From: a virus
Strand: one strand, 5' to 3'
Length of the DNA stretch: 37,695 bases
IMG/VR virus record: IMGVR_UViG_3300035224_000252
Span: 1-37,695 of that record
Both the position numbers and the translations under genes were made by a program. Under the pieces are notes generated by a model. The model was not told where the DNA came from and did not search any database. It worked only from the letters and a program-made list of their open reading frames with translations. Each line of letters opens with the position of its first letter. The first letter of the stretch is position 1. This document shows positions 1,487 through 36,881 of this stretch, piece after piece.

Positions 1487-1871
1487 AAAATCAACTCAAG
1501 ATCTTCTGCAAAAGCATGGAGCTAAAGTTAAAACATGGATTGAAGATATTGTATCTAGAGACTCCACTGCGACTTTAAACCAATTAATTACATCCATAGA
1601 TAAGGGGCAGCACGAACTCTATTTTTGCTATACAGAGCAAGAACGCCTGATAGGAGTAGTTACTATAGTTCAAATTGGTGACGTAATGCACTTAGATGGT
1701 GCGGCTGGAGATGTTCTAGGAGAGTGGGATATACTAGATAAATCTTTTGTAGAGTTGTGTAAGCAAAAAAATTGTACCAGTTATGAGTTTCGAGGTAGAA
1801 AAGGTTTTTTAAAAACTTTTAAAAAGTTTGGTATGAAAGAAAAATACACTGTTATGTCCAGAGCCGTATAA
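1479..1871 (+). CDS. Small GNAT-like protein downstream of the tail fibre
   Basis: 130 residues, starting with GTG at 1479 inside the end of the fibre gene (8-nt overlap, translational coupling likely). The middle reads like a degenerate N-acetyltransferase fold: beta strands ELYFCYTEQERLIGVVTIV, then the C-terminal SYEFRGRKGFLKTFKKFGM. Similar short proteins follow fibre genes in other tailed phages. They are usually annotated as hypothetical or GNAT-like, and the acetyl-CoA loop is not clearly visible here. It could be a fibre assembly factor or a modifying enzyme. Transcription ends at the hairpin immediately downstream. Confidence 0.6.
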   Translation: MIKKSTQDLLQKHGAKVKTWIEDIVSRDSTATLNQLITSIDKGQHELYFCYTEQERLIGVVTIVQIGDVMHLDGAAGDVLGEWDILDKSFVELCKQKNCTSYEFRGRKGFLKTFKKFGMKEKYTVMSRAV

Positions 1872-1872
1872 A

Positions 1873-1896
1873 AAAAGAGCCCGCAAAGGCTCTTTT
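1873..1896. terminator. Bidirectional intrinsic terminator
   Basis: AAAAGAGCC, loop CGCAAA, GGCTCTTTT: a 9-bp stem with an A-run on one side and a T-run on the other. It sits between convergent genes (stops at 1871 and 1914), so it can end both the rightward tail operon and the leftward replication operon. Confidence 0.9.
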
Positions 1897-1913
1897 AACA
1901 CTTCAAAATACTA

Positions 1914-2132
1914 CTATTCACTAGTATCTGTAACTTTCTCCATTTCGTCAGCAAGAGTAGAAGTATACCCTCTACCCATCATTGTGTACCTTTGGGTTTC
2001 TAAAGCCGATTTGTCTGTTAAAACTCTAATTTCCTCAATTTGCCTTATACAATGCTGTGCAATTTCAGATAGCTCATCAAAAACGTACTCTTTGTCGTCA
2101 ATAGTTACTGTATTTTTTTCTTTTTGTTCCAT
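1914..2132 (-). CDS. Small conserved phage protein (DUF6447-like)
   Basis: 72 residues, starting MEQKEKNTVTIDDKEYVFDELSE. This 'xIxIDDKEYxFDDLSExA' opening followed by a helical region is a pattern shared by small proteins of marine phages (DUF6447-like, by memory). The function is unknown. It is the last gene of the leftward operon, 9 nt after the ribonucleotide reductase stop. It is acidic and helical, with no membrane segment or metal-binding cysteines. Confidence 0.65.
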   Translation of the reverse strand: MEQKEKNTVTIDDKEYVFDELSEIAQHCIRQIEEIRVLTDKSALETQRYTMMGRGYTSTLADEMEKVTDTSE

Positions 2133-2141
2133 TATCTTTCC

Positions 2142-4019
2142 TTATAGTATCTCGCAAGCGCCACCCGTACAGGCAAGCTCTTGTGAGCCAGTTGTATTAT
2201 CCTCTTTCTCAAATTGAGCGAGGTCTTCCCAATTAACGTTAGAAGGCATAGCAGCTTTTAGTTCTTCATACTTTTCTTCGGAAATATCTTCATAAGGGGC
2301 TTGCTGATATACATGGTCGCTCCTAGGCAATAGGCTGATGCCACTACATATATCAAAATTGTCCCAAATCCACTGACATACTTGTAAATACTCACTATCT
2401 GTATAGTATACAGTTATACTAGGCTTATGCTCGCACCAGTTATTTTGATATGTCTTCCACAATGCCAGTTGCTCCATAGCTCCCACTTCGCTTACCGTTA
2501 TACTATCTTCAGGAGCTTTTACAGGAAAACTAAATACTACAGTACTATCGTTCATTACGTCTTTTTCTACAGGGAATCCTGCTTGTTCCATATAGATTGC
2601 CAGCGGGTCTTTTCTATCCGAGCGCACTCTTCTAACATAATGCTTAGAAAAACGAGGATGGATACCGGAAGCACTATCAACAAGCTGACTAACAGTACCG
2701 CTTGGCTTAACGCATGTAATAGCCACAGACTGATGAACCCCAAGTTTCTCAGCCCACTCTTTATTTGTTGCAATTGAAACATCTCTCATCTCCTGTAACC
2801 ATGAGGGTAACTCAGCAGAGTCTGTTCCTAACACAGCGTGGTCCATTATACCTGTTAAACTTACACCTAGCAAAGCCTCTTCTTCCGTATTACGTTTCCA
2901 ACGTACTCGTAAATATCTAAAATCAGTAAGACTAGACTGAAGTGTTCCAATAATTGTTGCAAGTCTCACTTTACGCTTTAGCGTGTCTAGTGTATCACCT
3001 GCTCGTACTACTACTTCTGATAGGTTACAAAACTCATTACTTCTAAGAATAATCTCTGAACATGGGTTTGTACCGAAGTCTTGTACTGGGTCTCTACGAC
3101 CATTTCTAGCTGCAATTTTCTGTGCTGCTACTCGACTAAAGACACCACGTTCACCTGCTTTGGACTCATAAAGGTTTTTCATTTCAGTTAAAAACGCTTC
3201 AAAATCGGGTTTCTCAGTATAAGCTACTGAGTTATTAGCTAAACGACGTTGTCCTTCATTTCTCCACCAGTCTCCAGACTTAGCTTTTGACATACGTTGA
3301 TCTGATAAGTTGGATAGACTAATAAGAGCAGAACGGCGTACACCGCCTACTACTACAATATCTGCAATCTTGCAACATACATCATGACACTCAATACTGG
3401 TCAGCTTTCGGCCTCCTGCTTTAGTAAAAATTCCTACACAGAAGTTAAACAAGTCTATCAAAGGCTCTGGTCCGCTTGCTCGACCACCGAATGTTTTAAG
3501 TCTAGCACCTGCAGGACGTACTCTGCCCATATCCCATTCAGGTATTTTTCCTGCATAAAGCATAGCAATCAGCTCACGAAAGGCACTAGCCCATCCTAGC
3601 TTACTATCACTTACTACAATAGTAGAGCTTGTTTTATGAAAAGTCTCTGCTACTTCAGGTAGTTTAGCAATAAAATTACGTTCAACACTAAACCCTACGC
3701 CTGTACCACACATAAGAACATACATTAGCTCATCAAAAGCTCTAGGATGGTCAATGTGCAGATAGCTGCAGTTAAAGCCTGCTACGTTATCTCTTTTGAG
3801 TGCTTCGCCCGCTGTCATCATACAACGCATAGAAGGCATTACATCCATACTATGAATAGCTTCGTATAGCTCTGAGGCTTCTTCCTCGTTTAATTGTTCT
3901 CTGTCTTTCCAAAAATCTATATATCTTTGAATAGTCTCTTCCCATGTTTCTCTTCGATTTTCTGCCTCGAGCCAGCGCGCGTAGCGACTTTTATGAATAA
4001 AACCTTGGTACTGATCCAT
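2142..4019 (-). CDS. nrdJ: Adenosylcobalamin-dependent (class II) ribonucleotide reductase
   Basis: 625 residues. Reduces ribonucleotides to deoxyribonucleotides for phage DNA synthesis, using a B12-generated thiyl radical, so it is oxygen-independent. The layout matches the monomeric RTPR type of Lactobacillus leichmannii: first redox cysteine C84 (GFNCSY), catalytic NPCSEI at 318-323 with radical cysteine C320 and E322, second redox cysteine C331 (EFCNLSE, the same 11-residue spacing as RTPR C408/C419), and a C-terminal CX4C pair (C617, C622) for re-reduction by thioredoxin or glutaredoxin. It is shorter than RTPR, as in other phage versions. There is no NrdB-type subunit nearby, as expected for class II. 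Its ATG overlaps the stop of the flap-nuclease gene (TAATG). It works with ThyX at 22766-23413. Confidence 0.95.
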   Translation of the reverse strand: MDQYQGFIHKSRYARWLEAENRRETWEETIQRYIDFWKDREQLNEEEASELYEAIHSMDVMPSMRCMMTAGEALKRDNVAGFNCSYLHIDHPRAFDELMYVLMCGTGVGFSVERNFIAKLPEVAETFHKTSSTIVVSDSKLGWASAFRELIAMLYAGKIPEWDMGRVRPAGARLKTFGGRASGPEPLIDLFNFCVGIFTKAGGRKLTSIECHDVCCKIADIVVVGGVRRSALISLSNLSDQRMSKAKSGDWWRNEGQRRLANNSVAYTEKPDFEAFLTEMKNLYESKAGERGVFSRVAAQKIAARNGRRDPVQDFGTNPCSEIILRSNEFCNLSEVVVRAGDTLDTLKRKVRLATIIGTLQSSLTDFRYLRVRWKRNTEEEALLGVSLTGIMDHAVLGTDSAELPSWLQEMRDVSIATNKEWAEKLGVHQSVAITCVKPSGTVSQLVDSASGIHPRFSKHYVRRVRSDRKDPLAIYMEQAGFPVEKDVMNDSTVVFSFPVKAPEDSITVSEVGAMEQLALWKTYQNNWCEHKPSITVYYTDSEYLQVCQWIWDNFDICSGISLLPRSDHVYQQAPYEDISEEKYEELKAAMPSNVNWEDLAQFEKEDNTTGSQELACTGGACEIL

Positions 4020-4843
4020 TATATCATTCTCCTTTTTATTTCGGATATATTGTCCTTTCCTATTGCATCATCGCAATATGTTACTAAATCCATCAACTCG
4101 TAATTTTTTAATAATACTTCTGCATTTAGATTCAACTCTTGTATATACTTATAATGTCCGTCAATAGGAATATTATCATATATATTCATAGCATTCCCAT
4201 ACTGACCGATAAGCTGCTCGGCTCGTTTTGGGCCTATACCTGCTATCCCTGGGACGTTATCCCCTTTATCACCAGTTAAGCACTTAAAAGAGATATACTC
4301 TTCTGGAGTTACATTGTAATGTTCATTCCAATTATCTATTGTTACTTCTTTACGAGTAACGTATGAGAAACGGCTTACGCCTTCTTGTATTAGCAAGTCC
4401 CAGTCTCTATCACTAGAAACTAGCCAAATCTCATCTAATCCATACTTGTCTTTTTCTTTAACAAGGTGGGCAGCAAGATCATCCGCCTCTACACCTTCAT
4501 ATCTTAGCAGCAGCCACGGTAGTGCTTTGATCGTTTCCTCGTACTCGTAGAAGAATTCTGCAAAGGCTTTCTTTTCTTCCTCTGTTTGAGTAGCATACTT
4601 ATCTTTTCGGTTCTGTTTGTACTCTGGTAATATCTCTTTCCTGTAGGAAGAGGAGCCCCAATCTGCTGTAATAATAATATTACCGCAGTTATAAGACTGT
4701 GCTAGAGACTTTACTGTTTGTATATACTCGTCTGTAAAATCTGTTCTGTTTTGGTGTTTCCACCGAAAGGCTAAGTTCAAAGCATCAACTACTAGTGTTT
4801 TATCCTTGGAACCTTCTGTTTTTTCTTTAAAATTAAAAGCCAC
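4019..4843 (-). CDS. 5'-3' exonuclease / flap endonuclease (T5 D15-like)
   Basis: 274 residues. Removes RNA primers and 5' flaps from lagging-strand intermediates. Visible landmarks: N-terminal metal-binding aspartate in VVDALN (D20), the arch-region tyrosine/lysine stretch SSYRKEILPEYKQNRK (66-80), acidic cluster GVEADD (117-122), second cluster SSDRDWD (143-149), and the helix-3-turn-helix DNA-binding segment GDKGDNVPGIAGIGPKRA (191-208). All carboxylates expected for the FEN family are present. Length and position next to the SbcCD-type genes match T5 D15. It overlaps the upstream nuclease gene by 11 nt. Confidence 0.95.
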   Translation of the reverse strand: MAFNFKEKTEGSKDKTLVVDALNLAFRWKHQNRTDFTDEYIQTVKSLAQSYNCGNIIITADWGSSSYRKEILPEYKQNRKDKYATQTEEEKKAFAEFFYEYEETIKALPWLLLRYEGVEADDLAAHLVKEKDKYGLDEIWLVSSDRDWDLLIQEGVSRFSYVTRKEVTIDNWNEHYNVTPEEYISFKCLTGDKGDNVPGIAGIGPKRAEQLIGQYGNAMNIYDNIPIDGHYKYIQELNLNAEVLLKNYELMDLVTYCDDAIGKDNISEIKRRMI

Positions 4844-5372: not shown

Positions 5373-7166
5373 TTACTCCAGTATGCTAATGTTTCCATTC
5401 TTAACGACCTCTATTTTCTCAAGAAGCGGATGAGACCAGCCATGTGATACTATATAAGTATTCAAATCTTCCTTCAATAGAACCTCTACTAGTTTCTCTC
5501 TTCCTTGATCGTCGAGGACGTTGGTTACTTCATCTAAAAATAATATATTGATTTTGGACTTTGAAATACTACTCATTAGCTTGCGAATAGCTATAAGAGT
5601 AGCTGTGTTAACACGGGCTAATTCACCCGACGATAAAGCTAAAATGTCTACAATATTACCATTATCAGTAATTTCGACATTTAACTTATCATTAGATACA
5701 ACAAATTCAAGAGTAAAACGACCATCTGAAAGCTCTGCCAAATATTCATTTGCCATTTCTTCTAAATCACCTACAAGATTTTCTATCTTATAAGCCAACA
5801 ACCCGTTAGTGCTAAACGATTTTTTTAATACTTCAAGACTTGACTCTAAACATTGATTTTCTACTAGTTTAGTATTGTAGGATTTTTGTTGCTCTACAAA
5901 TTCGCCAGTTTGCTCCTGTATTACTTGTATTCGTGTATTTCTACGGGTTCTTTCTTGGTTTTCATTAGAGATTTCCGTTATTTTTTTCTTTGCTGTACTA
6001 ATATTCTTTTGAATATCTGTAATTTTATTATCAAGAGCCTCGCGATCAACTTGCTCGACTTGCAAATTATTATCTATTGACCGATATAAGCCCTCCCAGT
6101 CTTGTTTTATCTTTTCGTTTTTAGAAAATTCTGTATTATTTTCCTTAACTGCTTTTATTAAAGGTTTTAGTCTGTCGATATTTTCCAGAGCTTCGAGGTG
6201 CTCTGCGGTGGAATCTGCCACCATCTTTAACTCTGCCGAAATATCGATAGATTGCTTGCATGCAGGGCACTCGTCTTTAATTGACTCTAATTGTTTTAAG
6301 GTTCGCATTGCACCCGTAGCTACTGCTTGCCAAGAGCCTAACTCTTCTTGTATAGTATCATACGACTGAATGTTGGTAACAGAAGATCCTTGCACCTCTG
6401 CAATATCTATACCTTTTAGCATTAATTTATATTGGTTATTCGTTGAAATTTTCTTATTTATTTCCGAAATATTCTCAAGTTCTATCATTAGAGAACGCAA
6501 TGCTTTCTCATCTTCAGATGTATTAATATCCAAATCCAATAGGGGTAGTATATTGGCGTCAGTCAATATATTTGTTTCTAACCATTTTTCTACTGTTTCG
6601 AGTTTCCCTGCTACTGTGGAAGATACCAAAGCTACTTCTTTTGAAGCGTTTTTAAATACTTCAAATAGTTCAACGTACTTCTCCAAGTGCAAAAGATCTA
6701 TTAAAAACTTCTTTCTATTAGCGTCGGTGGCTGTAAGAAATTGTAGACTTGCGTTAGTATTTTGATAAACTAACTGAGAAAACGTTTTAAAGTCTACTCC
6801 AAGAACTTCTTGCAATGTTTTATATGTATTTGTAGCTGTATGGCTAGAAATATCAACATTATTTTTTTCAAGCTTAACTTTAATACTTGTTTTACGGTTT
6901 ACTGTAATCTCATACAAATCATCATCTTTTACAAACGATAAATAAATGTTATAACCTTCTTGTATGTAACGATTTGGAATATCCGATTTTTTTATTCCTT
7001 TAGAGTTTTTGTTGTACAATGCTTCTTCTATGATTAAGGGAATAGAAGACTTTCCCATACCATTGGTACCAAGTATTTGTGTGACAATATTATTATTTAA
7101 TTGTAACTCATTACCAGAACCATAGCTAAAACAATTATCCCATTTCAACGTTTGTAATGTAATCAT
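5373..7166 (-). CDS. SbcC / Rad50 / T4 gp46-like recombination ATPase
   Basis: 597 residues. ABC-type ATPase subunit of the SbcCD (Rad50-Mre11) nuclease, which processes DNA ends and makes 3' tails for recombination-dependent replication. Walker A GTNGMGKS at 33-40. Long coiled-coil arms surround a zinc hook CPAC at 300-303. ABC signature LSSGE at 511-515, Walker B with D-loop ILFLDEVTNVLDD at 541-553, and an H-loop VSHGW near 573-577. Each arm is shorter than in bacterial SbcC, as in T4 gp46 and the T5 homologue. The start overlaps the end of the SbcD-like gene by 32 nt; AGGA precedes the ATG at 7166. Confidence 0.95.
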   Translation of the reverse strand: MITLQTLKWDNCFSYGSGNELQLNNNIVTQILGTNGMGKSSIPLIIEEALYNKNSKGIKKSDIPNRYIQEGYNIYLSFVKDDDLYEITVNRKTSIKVKLEKNNVDISSHTATNTYKTLQEVLGVDFKTFSQLVYQNTNASLQFLTATDANRKKFLIDLLHLEKYVELFEVFKNASKEVALVSSTVAGKLETVEKWLETNILTDANILPLLDLDINTSEDEKALRSLMIELENISEINKKISTNNQYKLMLKGIDIAEVQGSSVTNIQSYDTIQEELGSWQAVATGAMRTLKQLESIKDECPACKQSIDISAELKMVADSTAEHLEALENIDRLKPLIKAVKENNTEFSKNEKIKQDWEGLYRSIDNNLQVEQVDREALDNKITDIQKNISTAKKKITEISNENQERTRRNTRIQVIQEQTGEFVEQQKSYNTKLVENQCLESSLEVLKKSFSTNGLLAYKIENLVGDLEEMANEYLAELSDGRFTLEFVVSNDKLNVEITDNGNIVDILALSSGELARVNTATLIAIRKLMSSISKSKINILFLDEVTNVLDDQGREKLVEVLLKEDLNTYIVSHGWSHPLLEKIEVVKNGNISILE

Positions 7167-29491: not shown

Positions 29492-29932
29492 ATGAAAGTT
29501 AAAATAGGCAAATATCCTAAGCATAGATTTTACCATAATTGGTTGTATGCGTTAGGTTGGACTAATCAGGAAAAAGTTAGTGTTCGTATTGACCCATGGG
29601 ATACATGGTCTATGGACTCTACACTTGCACATATAATTATGCCGATGTTGGAACAGCTTCGTGCTACTGCTCATGGTTCCCCTCGCGTTGAGGACATAGA
29701 TCGTCCAGATCATTTAATTGGTACAATTCCTAATGCTCACGAAGTTGATGAATTTCACCATGAAGCATGGCAGTGGGTTTTAACAGAAATGATATTCTCT
29801 TTCAGAAGTGCTAAGCATGACTACGATGATTTTATAGTAGATCAAGAAATAGCTGCTCATATAGAATACGAAGAAAGAGTAAGCAACGGTTTTCGATTAT
29901 TCGGAAAATATTACCAAAATTTATGGGATTAA
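29492..29932 (+). CDS. Conserved phage protein, 'KVKIGKYPKHRxYHNxLY' family
   Basis: 146 residues. KVKIGKYPKHRFYHNWLY, KVSVRIDPWDTWSMDSTLAH, a middle with LEQLRATAHGSP, and WVLTEMIFSF are blocks of a protein found in very many marine phages, including cyanophages. The strongly conserved WDTWSMD and the His/Asp content suggest an enzyme or capsid-related role, but none is established to my knowledge. GAGGG precedes the ATG. Confidence 0.7.
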   Translation: MKVKIGKYPKHRFYHNWLYALGWTNQEKVSVRIDPWDTWSMDSTLAHIIMPMLEQLRATAHGSPRVEDIDRPDHLIGTIPNAHEVDEFHHEAWQWVLTEMIFSFRSAKHDYDDFIVDQEIAAHIEYEERVSNGFRLFGKYYQNLWD

Positions 29933-29937
29933 AGAGT

Positions 29938-31563
29938 ATGAAAGTTAAACGTACAGTGCAATACAGCAGTATAGCTCTACTAGGTTTAACAGGTTGTGGC
30001 GGAGGAGGTAGTTCTGAATCACCCACATTAGAGGTAATACAACCCACATTAGAGGTAGTAGAACCTCCTGTAATTGTAGAACCTCCTGTAATTGTAGAAC
30101 CTCCTGTAATTGTAGAACCTCCTGTACTTGTTCAAATGAGTAGACCTACCGACTGTCTAACAGAGTTTAGCGGTACTGGTGGTGCATTTGAGTATCTTAC
30201 CTGTGATGGTGTAAAGCAATCAGCAGATATAGATTATCCTTACGATGAGTTTAATACTGACATTGCTATAGTAGACCTACTTGCGGTTGTAGATATAAAA
30301 CTGGATTTAGAAGGTCTATCCTATGAAGAGTTTGTACAAAGGGAACTAGACTTTGCCAACCAAACATTTGAAGACTCAGGTGTTTATGTCATGCTACGCC
30401 TAGCAGGAGTAAAAACTGTTGACGTTAGTAAGGGCGACTTGTATAGGCAAATAGATGCTTTCACCGAAAGTAAGTCTGAGTTTACTGACTTAGATGAGTG
30501 GCAAAAAGAGTCCCGTGCTGACTACGCATTTTTATTTAAAAAGATTGAAGACGATGCATTTGCTTGTGGCGTAGCCTTGCTTAAATACTCTCGCGAAGAT
30601 TATAAGTATCGAAGGGGTGTTACACAATGCTTCCAGAACACAGTTTTTCAAAGTACCTCAACCACTCGTTACTACGAAAGAGCACATGAAACATTTACTC
30701 ATGAGATGGGACACTTGTTTGGTCTTGAGCACGATGTTGATTCAGCTACTACGCAACCTATGTTTGAATATTCGTACGGATACTTACTCCCAGGCTATGA
30801 AACTAAAAATGGTAGTGGGTATGGTACAGTTATGAGTTACTCTGATTTAGGTACTGGTAGATTTTCAGACAGAAGTGAGCGATTCGAAGTTCCAGAAACA
30901 GGCTTATCTCAGCCTCTAGGACAAGAAAGCACTGATGCTGTAGAACATATCAACCGTGTACGATACTACATGAGTCAGTTGCATGAGATGTTTGATTCGG
31001 GAGATTATCCGACTGCACCCCCAGTCGCGCCCACACCAGAACCACGACCCCCACGAACACCTGTAGAGACTGATACTTGTGGCGACACACCTGAGAATGT
31101 TTTTTGTGGTGTTCCCTTTTCGGCTAACGCACTCAATACCTATGTAGACGAAGAATTCCCGATAACGATTCCAGCAGGTAAGATACATGCGTCACGTTTT
31201 ACTACTGCTGGGTCAATAGACACTTCTGGTGCTATGCGATGGCACTCTCCATCATGGGCAAATCAATCTCAGGCAAATGTATGGATATCCAAAGTTGCTG
31301 GTGGAGACCCAGTAGGTGAACATTGCACTGATTCTGGTAGCAGCATCATTGATGTGGTTTACGGGTATGAGGAAACGCAGTACGACCGTTGCGTATTAGA
31401 GCAAGGGCAAGAATACTATGCTAACTTTCGGTACACTTCCTCAGACTACAGCAGCAGCATGATTCAAACAGTTAATACAAGACCTGGAGAAGAAGTGACC
31501 CCAGAATTTAACGACACTTCCTTAGTGTTTAGCATGAATGAATCTAATATTTGCTTGTTTTAA
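29938..31563 (+). CDS. Secreted lipoprotein zinc metalloprotease (metzincin)
   Basis: 541 residues. Signal peptide with lipobox LTGC, lipidated Cys20 followed by GGGGSS, which suggests outer-membrane anchoring. A linker holds four PPVIVE-type repeats (about 43-63). The catalytic domain has the metzincin motif HEMGHLFGLEH (255-265) with the Met-turn VMSYSD (298-303), as in reprolysin/astacin-like proteases. A Pro-rich linker (about 359-376) leads to a C-terminal beta-rich domain with several cysteines. This looks like a bacterial exported protease carried as cargo. The ATG at 29938 gives the best signal peptide; an ATG at 29923 overlaps the previous gene. No dedicated promoter seen. Confidence 0.85.
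   Translation: MKVKRTVQYSSIALLGLTGCGGGGSSESPTLEVIQPTLEVVEPPVIVEPPVIVEPPVIVEPPVLVQMSRPTDCLTEFSGTGGAFEYLTCDGVKQSADIDYPYDEFNTDIAIVDLLAVVDIKLDLEGLSYEEFVQRELDFANQTFEDSGVYVMLRLAGVKTVDVSKGDLYRQIDAFTESKSEFTDLDEWQKESRADYAFLFKKIEDDAFACGVALLKYSREDYKYRRGVTQCFQNTVFQSTSTTRYYERAHETFTHEMGHLFGLEHDVDSATTQPMFEYSYGYLLPGYETKNGSGYGTVMSYSDLGTGRFSDRSERFEVPETGLSQPLGQESTDAVEHINRVRYYMSQLHEMFDSGDYPTAPPVAPTPEPRPPRTPVETDTCGDTPENVFCGVPFSANALNTYVDEEFPITIPAGKIHASRFTTAGSIDTSGAMRWHSPSWANQSQANVWISKVAGGDPVGEHCTDSGSSIIDVVYGYEETQYDRCVLEQGQEYYANFRYTSSDYSSSMIQTVNTRPGEEVTPEFNDTSLVFSMNESNICLF
30061..30132 (+). repeat. Four tandem 18-nt coding repeats (PPVIVE linker)
   Basis: The unit GAACCTCCTGTAATTGTA repeats from 30061; the fourth copy is altered. 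Encodes a Pro-Val-rich spacer between the lipid anchor and protease domain. Near-perfect copies suggest slippage-prone length variation. Confidence 0.85.
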
Positions 31564-35752: not shown

Positions 35753-35918
35753 CGTTTTTCTCCTGTTGAAAATCTACCAATAAGTCGAAACATTCTTTAG
35801 CTTCCTCATAGCTTAGTGTATGTGACAAAGTGTGCATAAGTTGTCGAAACCCTTCAGCATCTTGTTTAATTACCCACCAGTTACCTGTACAGGCATCCTC
35901 TTGTAAATCATAGTGCAT
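35742..35918 (-). CDS. Small acidic hypothetical protein
   Basis: 58 residues from the ATG at 35918, which overlaps the preceding stop (TAATG) and follows GGGGAG; an upstream in-frame start at 35951 would lie inside the previous gene. DACTGNWWVIKQDAEGFRQL then helices. Function unknown. Confidence 0.55.
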   Translation of the reverse strand: MHYDLQEDACTGNWWVIKQDAEGFRQLMHTLSHTLSYEEAKECFDLLVDFQQEKNDDT

Positions 35919-36112
35919 TATATTTCTCCCCAACCTGCAGACCTCAACCATGCATTGTCTGCCTCGCTATTAGCTTCCCTAGTTTCTCTTTGCTTCTCAC
36001 AAGCGTCACACAACAGTAGCTGCCCTCTAGAGCCTGTAGAGCTACAGTTGGAAATGTACTCTTTGTAATCGTAACCTTTTGGAACCCACTCACTTACTTT
36101 GTTATTGCACAT
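35918..36112 (-). CDS. Small conserved phage protein with CXXC
   Basis: 64 residues. MCNNKVSEWVPKGYDYKEYI, NCSSTGSRGQLLLCDACEK and DNAWLRSAGWGEI are blocks recognised from small proteins of other marine phages. The Cys residues (C2, C23, and the CDAC pair) could hold one zinc ion. First gene after promoter P16, leader about 24 nt. Function unknown. Confidence 0.65.
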   Translation of the reverse strand: MCNNKVSEWVPKGYDYKEYISNCSSTGSRGQLLLCDACEKQRETREANSEADNAWLRSAGWGEI

Positions 36113-36142: not shown

Positions 36143-36171
36143 ATTATACTGGACTTAAGGAATTTTGTCAA
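36143..36171 (-). promoter_or_regulatory. Sigma70 promoter P16
   Basis: TTTC then TTGACA (36166-36171), 17-nt spacer with CCTTAAG, TATAAT (36143-36148). Leader about 24 nt to the ATG at 36112. Confidence 0.88.
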
Positions 36172-36192: not shown

Positions 36193-36221
36193 AAAAAAAC
36201 CCTCACTATTTCTAGTAAAGG
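36193..36221 (-). terminator. Intrinsic terminator of the 655-nt RNA
   Basis: Leftward strand: CCTTTACTA-GAAA-TAGTGAGGG, 9 bp with a GNRA tetraloop, then seven T. A textbook terminator placed just before promoter P16. Confidence 0.92.
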
Positions 36222-36846
36222 CTTCGTTACATTCTGAGTTGACAGACTCATAGAATAGTTGTTGTACTGCCACCTCCTCGGACTTTGTACAACGATTTAC
36301 CTCGACTTAGCGTTTTTTATGGGAAGGGTGTAACCTAGTCTACGACCAGAAACCTACCTTGTTTAGTACAAGGATGCAAAACTCCCTCTTACCATACGCT
36401 TTATACAGCCCTAAGAAAGGGTGAGCTGTCTCATGTCTCTAGTCTCAAGAAAGTGTAAATTCAGTCTCTGACCTACATGAAATTTAGTTTTTACTGTTTT
36501 GTTTTATATAGCGAATACCACGCGAGAACTACCCCTTAAATCCGCTGTTAGACAACTTTCACTTGGCATCTTTTATAAAGCGATTGCCGCGAGTCGTATC
36601 TAGGACTTCTACCGCCCAGTCAGTATATCGTTTTTATATAGCGGGTTCGTTGATTGACTAATTCTTTCCGCTTGTCGGACTCTGGCTGTCGCCTAAAAGG
36701 TACACCTGCCATTCGTCTAACACAGTTTGAGGTACTGTGAGACCTCAGAAGGGAAGCGAGGTGGTGGAGAAGAACTCATTGTTTACCACGCCTTAGGAAT
36801 TTATCTGCCGAATACAGTCTCTATTTGCCTTCTTCCCAATTTCTGA
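36193..36846 (-). ncRNA. Candidate large structured noncoding RNA (about 655 nt)
   Basis: A complete transcription unit without a protein: consensus promoter P17, about 655 nt, then an intrinsic terminator. No ORF of 60 codons exists on either strand across 36113-36890. The leftward RNA has many local pairings: GTTGTAC/GTACAAC (36261-36293, 7 bp); ATTC-TGAGT with ACTCA-GAAT (36231-36256); CCTTGT/ACAAGG (near 36357-36373); GGGAAG/CTTCCC enclosing GTGGT/ACCAC (36753-36837); and a possible H-type pseudoknot, GAGGT/ACCTC interleaved with CACAGT/ACTGTG (36721-36746). CGCTATATAAAA recurs (36502-36513, 36632-36643; variant 36571-36582). Size and phage setting recall the giant phage RNAs GOLLD and ROOL, but I cannot confirm homology and see no tRNA nearby. 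Confidence 0.7.
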
Positions 36847-36852
36847 ATGACT

Positions 36853-36881
36853 ATTATACTTAGTTTTAAGCATTCTGTCAA
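36853..36881 (-). promoter_or_regulatory. Sigma70 promoter P17 (noncoding RNA)
   Basis: AATAGTTC then TTGACA (36876-36881), 17-nt spacer with GCTTAAAA, TATAAT (36853-36858). One of the best matches to the phage promoter family; expected start about 36846. Confidence 0.92.

Follow-up and report, generated by a model that had tools for sequence, protein, structure and literature searches.

The window, a linear virus record of 37.7 kb, carries a predicted independent RNA gene which appears to represent a new, apparently uncatalogued family of phage RNAs with a core of its own. Comparison of sequences showed that this gene is bounded by a promoter and a terminator of its own, that the next genes are served by a second promoter, and that it combines a conserved pseudoknot core with modular ends and optional tRNA partners; expression was not shown. 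We are close to certain that the product is a structured noncoding RNA and consider it likely, in the absence of transcript data, that this RNA functions in trans as an independent transcript. The whole reading, namely, that T5-like phages carry a stand-alone gene for a structured RNA acting in trans, with the inferred steps included, was given a probability of about 0.5. This kind of RNA is known from GOLLD, ROOL and T5 RNAX, and an earlier description of the family was not excluded, as only open-licence literature was covered.

The gene content of the window was similar to that of T5, with a DNA polymerase, an SbcC-like protein, a 5'-3' exonuclease, helicases and an NAD-dependent ligase. As the best identity of the polymerase (∼44%) was to Demerecviridae, this replication gene set and the polymerase together led us to classify the phage as T5-like. 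No DNA-level match of the window was detected among cultured phages, and a marine origin was inferred, not shown, from the company of IMG/VR contigs. Unusually for this region in a T5-like phage, the plus strand at 29923-31563 encodes a 546-amino-acid protein in which Pfam identified a reprolysin-like metallopeptidase domain (E 4.6e-12).

An earlier note on this DNA had described a consensus promoter, about 655 nt free of 60-codon ORFs and a 9-bp terminator with seven T's, and all three were confirmed by reading of the sequence and by promoter statistics (Table 1). The window contained 15 exact TTGACA-N17-TATAAT sites, and the promoter of the RNA was among them. Sites with two or fewer mismatches numbered 25 versus 8.0 expected, or approximately 3-fold more than chance, and a count of 25 was reached in 0 of 100 shuffles. 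Between the flanking genes, no ORF on either strand reached 60 codons; the longest ORF in the RNA region (39 codons) was antisense, and the longest sense ORF had 30 codons. A repeated element had also been reported and was found as three copies of CGCTWTATAAAA in the 37.7 kb, all located within the RNA (0.02 expected; 0/100 shuffles). The first copy fitted a pseudoknot of the core design better than shuffled sequences did (2/400). The possibility that all three copies were pseudoknot modules was rejected, as the other two did not beat shuffled sequences (64/400 and 42/400). The global folding energy of the RNA was ordinary (z = -0.65), and hence the evidence for structure is comparative and not thermodynamic.

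Table 1. Features of the RNA unit and its surroundings in the window
Feature	Position	Strand	Remarks
Upstream gene, 118 aa	36891..37247	minus	Weak similarity to a family of DNA-binding phage proteins (phrog_1725, E 3.2e-4); synteny anchor
Promoter of the RNA, TTGACA-N17-TATAAT	36853..36881	minus	Exact consensus; TTGACA 36881-36876, TATAAT 36858-36853, spacer 17 nt; present before the RNA in relatives too
Inferred transcript, ~654 nt	36193..36846	minus	Start placed 7 nt past the -10 box (inferred); no 60-codon ORF; same layout in homologues
5' module A	36751..36837	minus	Closing stem GGGAAG/CUUCCC round two hairpins and the strand AUAAAUUCCUAAG
Candidate pseudoknot, GAGGU/ACCUC and CACAG/CUGUG	36721..36746	minus	Drawable only; variable part without homologue, no comparative data
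Three CGCTWTATAAAA repeats	36632-36643, 36571-36582, 36502-36513 (span 36502..36643)	minus	Middle part of the RNA
Conserved core, model R1, ~130 nt	36298..36430	minus	119.8 bits in the window; common to all members
H-type pseudoknot	36384..36429	minus	S1, 36423-36429 with 36405-36411; linker, 36392-36404; S2, 36412-36419 with 36384-36391
Hairpin P3, CCUUGU/ACAAGG	36357..36373	minus	Compensatory changes
Hairpin P4, GACU/AGUC, then conserved GAGG	36304..36340	minus	Compensatory changes
Hairpin P5, GUUGUAC/GUACAAC, G-rich inner loop	36261..36293	minus	Own versus swapped arms, 0/50,000; arms chosen by eye
Intrinsic terminator	36193..36221	minus	9-bp stem CCUUUACUA-GAAA-UAGUGAGGG, then seven T's; read directly
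Promoter for the next genes	36143..36171	minus	Exact consensus, directly past the terminator; kept in relatives
Downstream flanking gene	35918-36112		Borders the ORF-less stretch

Relatives were sought via the 118-amino-acid upstream gene, and 80 virus contigs or loci were obtained. The closest of these repeated the same layout, with the gene followed by a sigma70-type promoter, 280 to 700 nt of noncoding sequence, a terminator and a further promoter. Analyses with blastn and nhmmer indicated that relatives were recognizable over the initial ∼100 nt and over the 3' half of the RNA, while the middle differed in length and content. When all of IMG/VR was searched with the core DNA pattern GTMTAAAGYGTATGGYRNNNNGG, only 14 stretches were detected, comprising 11 contigs that were already known plus L087, L093 and L098, which were new, and a core profile search added one more distant member, L355 (65 bits; E 1.5e-11). 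The core was present in the window and 17 other virus contigs (18 carriers), mostly in the same setting of gene, promoter and terminator, and the scores of these 17 contigs with model R1 ranged from 43 to 126 bits. The term giant, as applied earlier to this RNA, suited the largest members of the family but not the relatives as a whole, which extend from ∼280 to 700 nt around a core of ∼130 nt.

Searches beyond these contigs were negative. The core pattern was matched 11 times in 84,980 genomes of bacteria and archaea, always without an S1 arm at the expected position, and blast searches of cultured phages with the RNA and two homologues produced nothing beyond chance, such that neither cultured phages nor bacterial genomes yielded a homologue. 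None of the 56 relatives of the downstream gene carried a core. In contig L019, positions 5503-5950 contained a promoter, ∼440 nt and a strong terminator with no match to R1, which is possibly another noncoding RNA near the same upstream gene.

The core consisted, in order, of the 7-nt arm of S1, a loop, the complementary S1 arm, a linker, an S2 arm complementary to the loop, the hairpins P3 and P4, the GAGG motif and P5, the last of which was usual but not universal among core carriers. The linker was nearly invariant (UMUAAAGYGUAUGG). For S1, P3 and P4 combined (17 pairs in 16 sequences), 93% of cells were able to pair, and compensatory change was detected in 11 of the pairs; the covariation score was 0.378 compared to 0.135 for shuffled sequences and no more than 0.092 when the partners were slid. 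The arms of S2 were left unaligned column by column by MAFFT, and support for this helix therefore rests on an alignment-free permutation test, in which each loop was paired with either its own downstream arm or the arm of another phage. Own arms had a mean of -9.95 kcal/mol and swapped arms -5.72 kcal/mol, and 0 of 50,000 permutations were as good. Kinship among the sequences inflates covariation counts; given the variety of the S2 helices, common ancestry alone would be an unlikely cause. The distant member L355, which was found after the pseudoknot had been defined, had a new S1 (ACACCAG/CUGGUGU), a perfect new S2 (CCCCAAG/CUUGGGG) and an altered linker, and both helices paired. Some members were imperfect, with a weak S2 in L008 (-4.0 kcal/mol) and one broken S1 pair in L010 and L013. 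G-U pairs were retained in S1, which argues for a function as RNA rather than as DNA. The earlier note had placed its emphasis on a pseudoknot at 36721-36746, and this emphasis was not borne out; the well-supported conserved pseudoknot sits elsewhere in the RNA. The idea that the GGG following S2 pairs with the loop of P4 was rejected in the absence of covariation. In the P5 region, a G-rich inner loop was kept in L007, L009, L015, L093, L355, L008 and L018 (GAGGAGGUGG, GUGGAUGGG, GAAGGAAGGG and GAGGCGGU). The full Shine-Dalgarno-like motif AGGAGGUG of the window P5 loop was not maintained as such in relatives.

Pseudoknots were also sought in syntenic contigs that lack the core. A perfect 7+7-bp H-type pseudoknot was detected in L027 (∼2816-2848; 0/200 shuffles) and a 7+7-bp pseudoknot in L016 (∼4450-4489; 5/200), with weak candidates in L023, L024 and L026. 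The results for L027 and L016 suggested that a pseudoknotted RNA is maintained at this locus even where the model does not detect it.

The regions on either side of the core were modular. Module A was common to the window, L006, L009, L011, L012 and L014, and its hairpins exhibited compensatory change in 7 of 10 pairs (score of 0.827 versus 0.322). A different module, with strands AUGCUUGAGUGAU and UUGAUCUCGCGGA, was located 5' of the core in ∼10 relatives and was not evident in the window; a search pattern made from this second module returned 111 stretches, mostly by chance. Overall, the earlier proposal of a phage noncoding RNA was supported by these analyses. The collection of homologues and the test for covariation that had been suggested as a check revealed covarying S1, S2, P3, P4 and module A helices, no conserved short ORF was seen in the region, and core indels between the window and homologues were mostly not multiples of three.

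Several members were associated with tRNA genes. A tRNA-Met (CAU) was present between the core and the terminator in L006 and L009, while in L355 a tRNA-Gly (UCC) began ∼20 nt past the promoter and was directly followed by the core. In L087, the RNA is closely preceded by a tRNA-Trp as well as by a permuted tmRNA; the latter (1846-2164, minus strand; Rfam tmRNA_permuted, 93 bits versus a cut-off of 47; tag ANDDVYSLAA) was a gene separate from the RNA. Most members, including the window, lacked a tRNA in the unit. No tRNA was detected anywhere in the window, nor did ARAGORN and Rfam find a tmRNA there, with its tRNA-like domain and tag reading frame.

The nearest architectural analogue of the window RNA is RNAX of phage T5 (AY543070, 40848-41566, minus strand), a 719-nt RNA annotated as a 'stable RNA with unknown functions' which has its own promoter and a tRNA-Arg at the 3' end; kinship was not shown. 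Similarity to RNAX was detected by blastn in 521 phage records and extended over most of its length in 216, and in those relatives that were inspected a tRNA-like domain was retained at the 5' end, as was the tRNA-Arg in most cases. This 5' domain is often annotated as an odd tRNA (tRNA-OTHER or tRNA-Sec). T5 RNAX contains two copies of GUCACCUUGACWUAAACUGGAA and is without an Rfam family. The two RNAs share a T5-like phage, a similar length, a promoter of their own, the lack of a protein, variable modules and an unknown function; a tRNA in the unit, as in RNAX, was present in L006, L009 and L355 but not in the window. Such likenesses could reflect descent of the window RNA from the RNAX lineage with a high level of divergence, a possibility that would be compatible with the main reading and that we consider unlikely but the strongest of the alternatives. 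Against it, the neighbor genes are not the same and no homology in sequence or to the core model was detectable. The window RNA also lacks the tRNA-like 5' domain. A blastn search of phages that included T5 and hundreds of RNAX records produced no match to the window RNA, and model R1 had no significant match in RNAX, with 9 bits for T5 and nothing for ten relatives. The 9-bit match resembled a pseudoknot and was rejected, as this part was not conserved among RNAX relatives.

An alternative explanation is that the unit is a long 5' leader which acts in cis as an attenuator or riboswitch, its pseudoknot resembling an aptamer and its terminator being regulated so as to control the small genes downstream. 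Many regulatory leaders are indeed laid out in this way, with a compact, conserved pseudoknot, a linker that hardly varies and an intrinsic terminator downstream. In both the window and relatives, however, a perfect promoter was present right past the terminator, and because of this adjoining promoter the next genes need no read-through. The wide variation in length and modules and the presence of tRNAs within the unit also count against a leader, and we regard this explanation as improbable, without having searched for a mutually exclusive antiterminator helix.

The earlier note had left open whether the RNA was a divergent member of GOLLD or ROOL or a new class. GOLLD is a phage RNA with a conserved 3' part and a variable 5' part and is found near, or contains, tRNAs; ROOL is of similar size, is phage borne, has pseudoknots and often lies by tRNA islands (PMC12286853). 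Scans of the window RNA and its relatives with Rfam, at gathering and relaxed thresholds, detected chance matches only. The GOLLD model (RF02032; gathering score of 150 bits) had no match to the RNA at E values up to 10 in the window and 16 relatives, and its sole match (22 bits) was elsewhere in the L012 contig, with similar matches occurring in control genomes. The ROOL model (RF03087) had no match in 17 records, but the control genomes were also silent in that search; cmscan was negative at the gathering score, and the ROOL negative rests mostly on gathering-score scans. The lack of matches to either model in the window or its relatives favored the new family over a divergent GOLLD or ROOL. 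The RNA could still form cages or oligomers and work like GOLLD or ROOL while belonging to neither. A phage-borne RNA with a conserved 3' half, a variable 5' half and middle and tRNA company is what has been described for GOLLD (PMC12286853), and the new family resembles ROOL in size, phage carriage, pseudoknots and tRNA vicinity. The likeness to GOLLD is general and not diagnostic. Unlike GOLLD, the new family has a compact ∼130-nt core and natural members down to ∼280 nt, which would leave little room for a cage, and the Rfam models of both RNAs were unmatched. In the absence of data on intermolecular contacts, the cage proposal was judged to be as improbable as the leader, and self-assembly in the manner of GOLLD or ROOL was considered to have no more than a slim chance.

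Long ORF-less RNAs have been found in other phages by RNA-seq: the most abundant transcript of phage ICP1 is an ORF-less RNA of ∼800 nt, and phage K has two long noncoding RNAs (PMC7567579, PMC9241854). These transcripts are of unknown role, as is the window RNA. Nothing significant for kinship was found in searches of phage collections, in which no one-by-one comparison was made. Finally, a DNA element (a replication origin or packaging site) whose repeats act as DNA would fit a noncoding, structured stretch in the replication-gene half of the genome but is very improbable given the orientation of the promoter and terminator, the G-U pairs kept in S1, the tRNAs in the unit and the pseudoknot topology.

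For a stand-alone RNA gene acting in trans, the following series of steps may be envisaged, each of which is inferred. The RNA would be transcribed by the host RNA polymerase from its host-type promoter. Where a tRNA is present, it would be freed by RNase P and other tRNA-processing nucleases. The remaining body would persist as a stable species, in line with the annotation of T5 RNAX, and act in trans. This stable RNA may then act around the takeover of translation, possibly as a scaffold binding ribosomes or tRNA-related factors. A role related to translation is tentative and stands at somewhat less than an even chance; it is favored only because of the recurring company of tRNA and tmRNA genes and the analogy with RNAX and GOLLD. 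Furthermore, most members have no tRNA in the unit, and the connection to translation may thus be incidental.

Few large structured RNAs are known from phages, and what they do is an open question; the new family adds one with a compact core. At ∼130 nt, this core would be a more tractable target than GOLLD or ROOL for probing and structure determination, and natural versions of ∼280 nt as well as versions containing tRNAs exist. The comparison also brings T5 RNAX to attention, as this RNA belongs to a standard laboratory phage, has hundreds of related records and lacks an Rfam family, and the role of a tRNA-linked phage RNA could be tested with it in E. coli. A broader proposal, which we put forward as speculation and consider doubtful, is that the new RNA class has a pseudoknot core set in a string of interchangeable modules, to which tRNAs can be added at either of the two ends. 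If this were true, RNAX and the window RNA would be two outcomes of one strategy, in which tRNA-linked scaffold RNAs reshape host translation.
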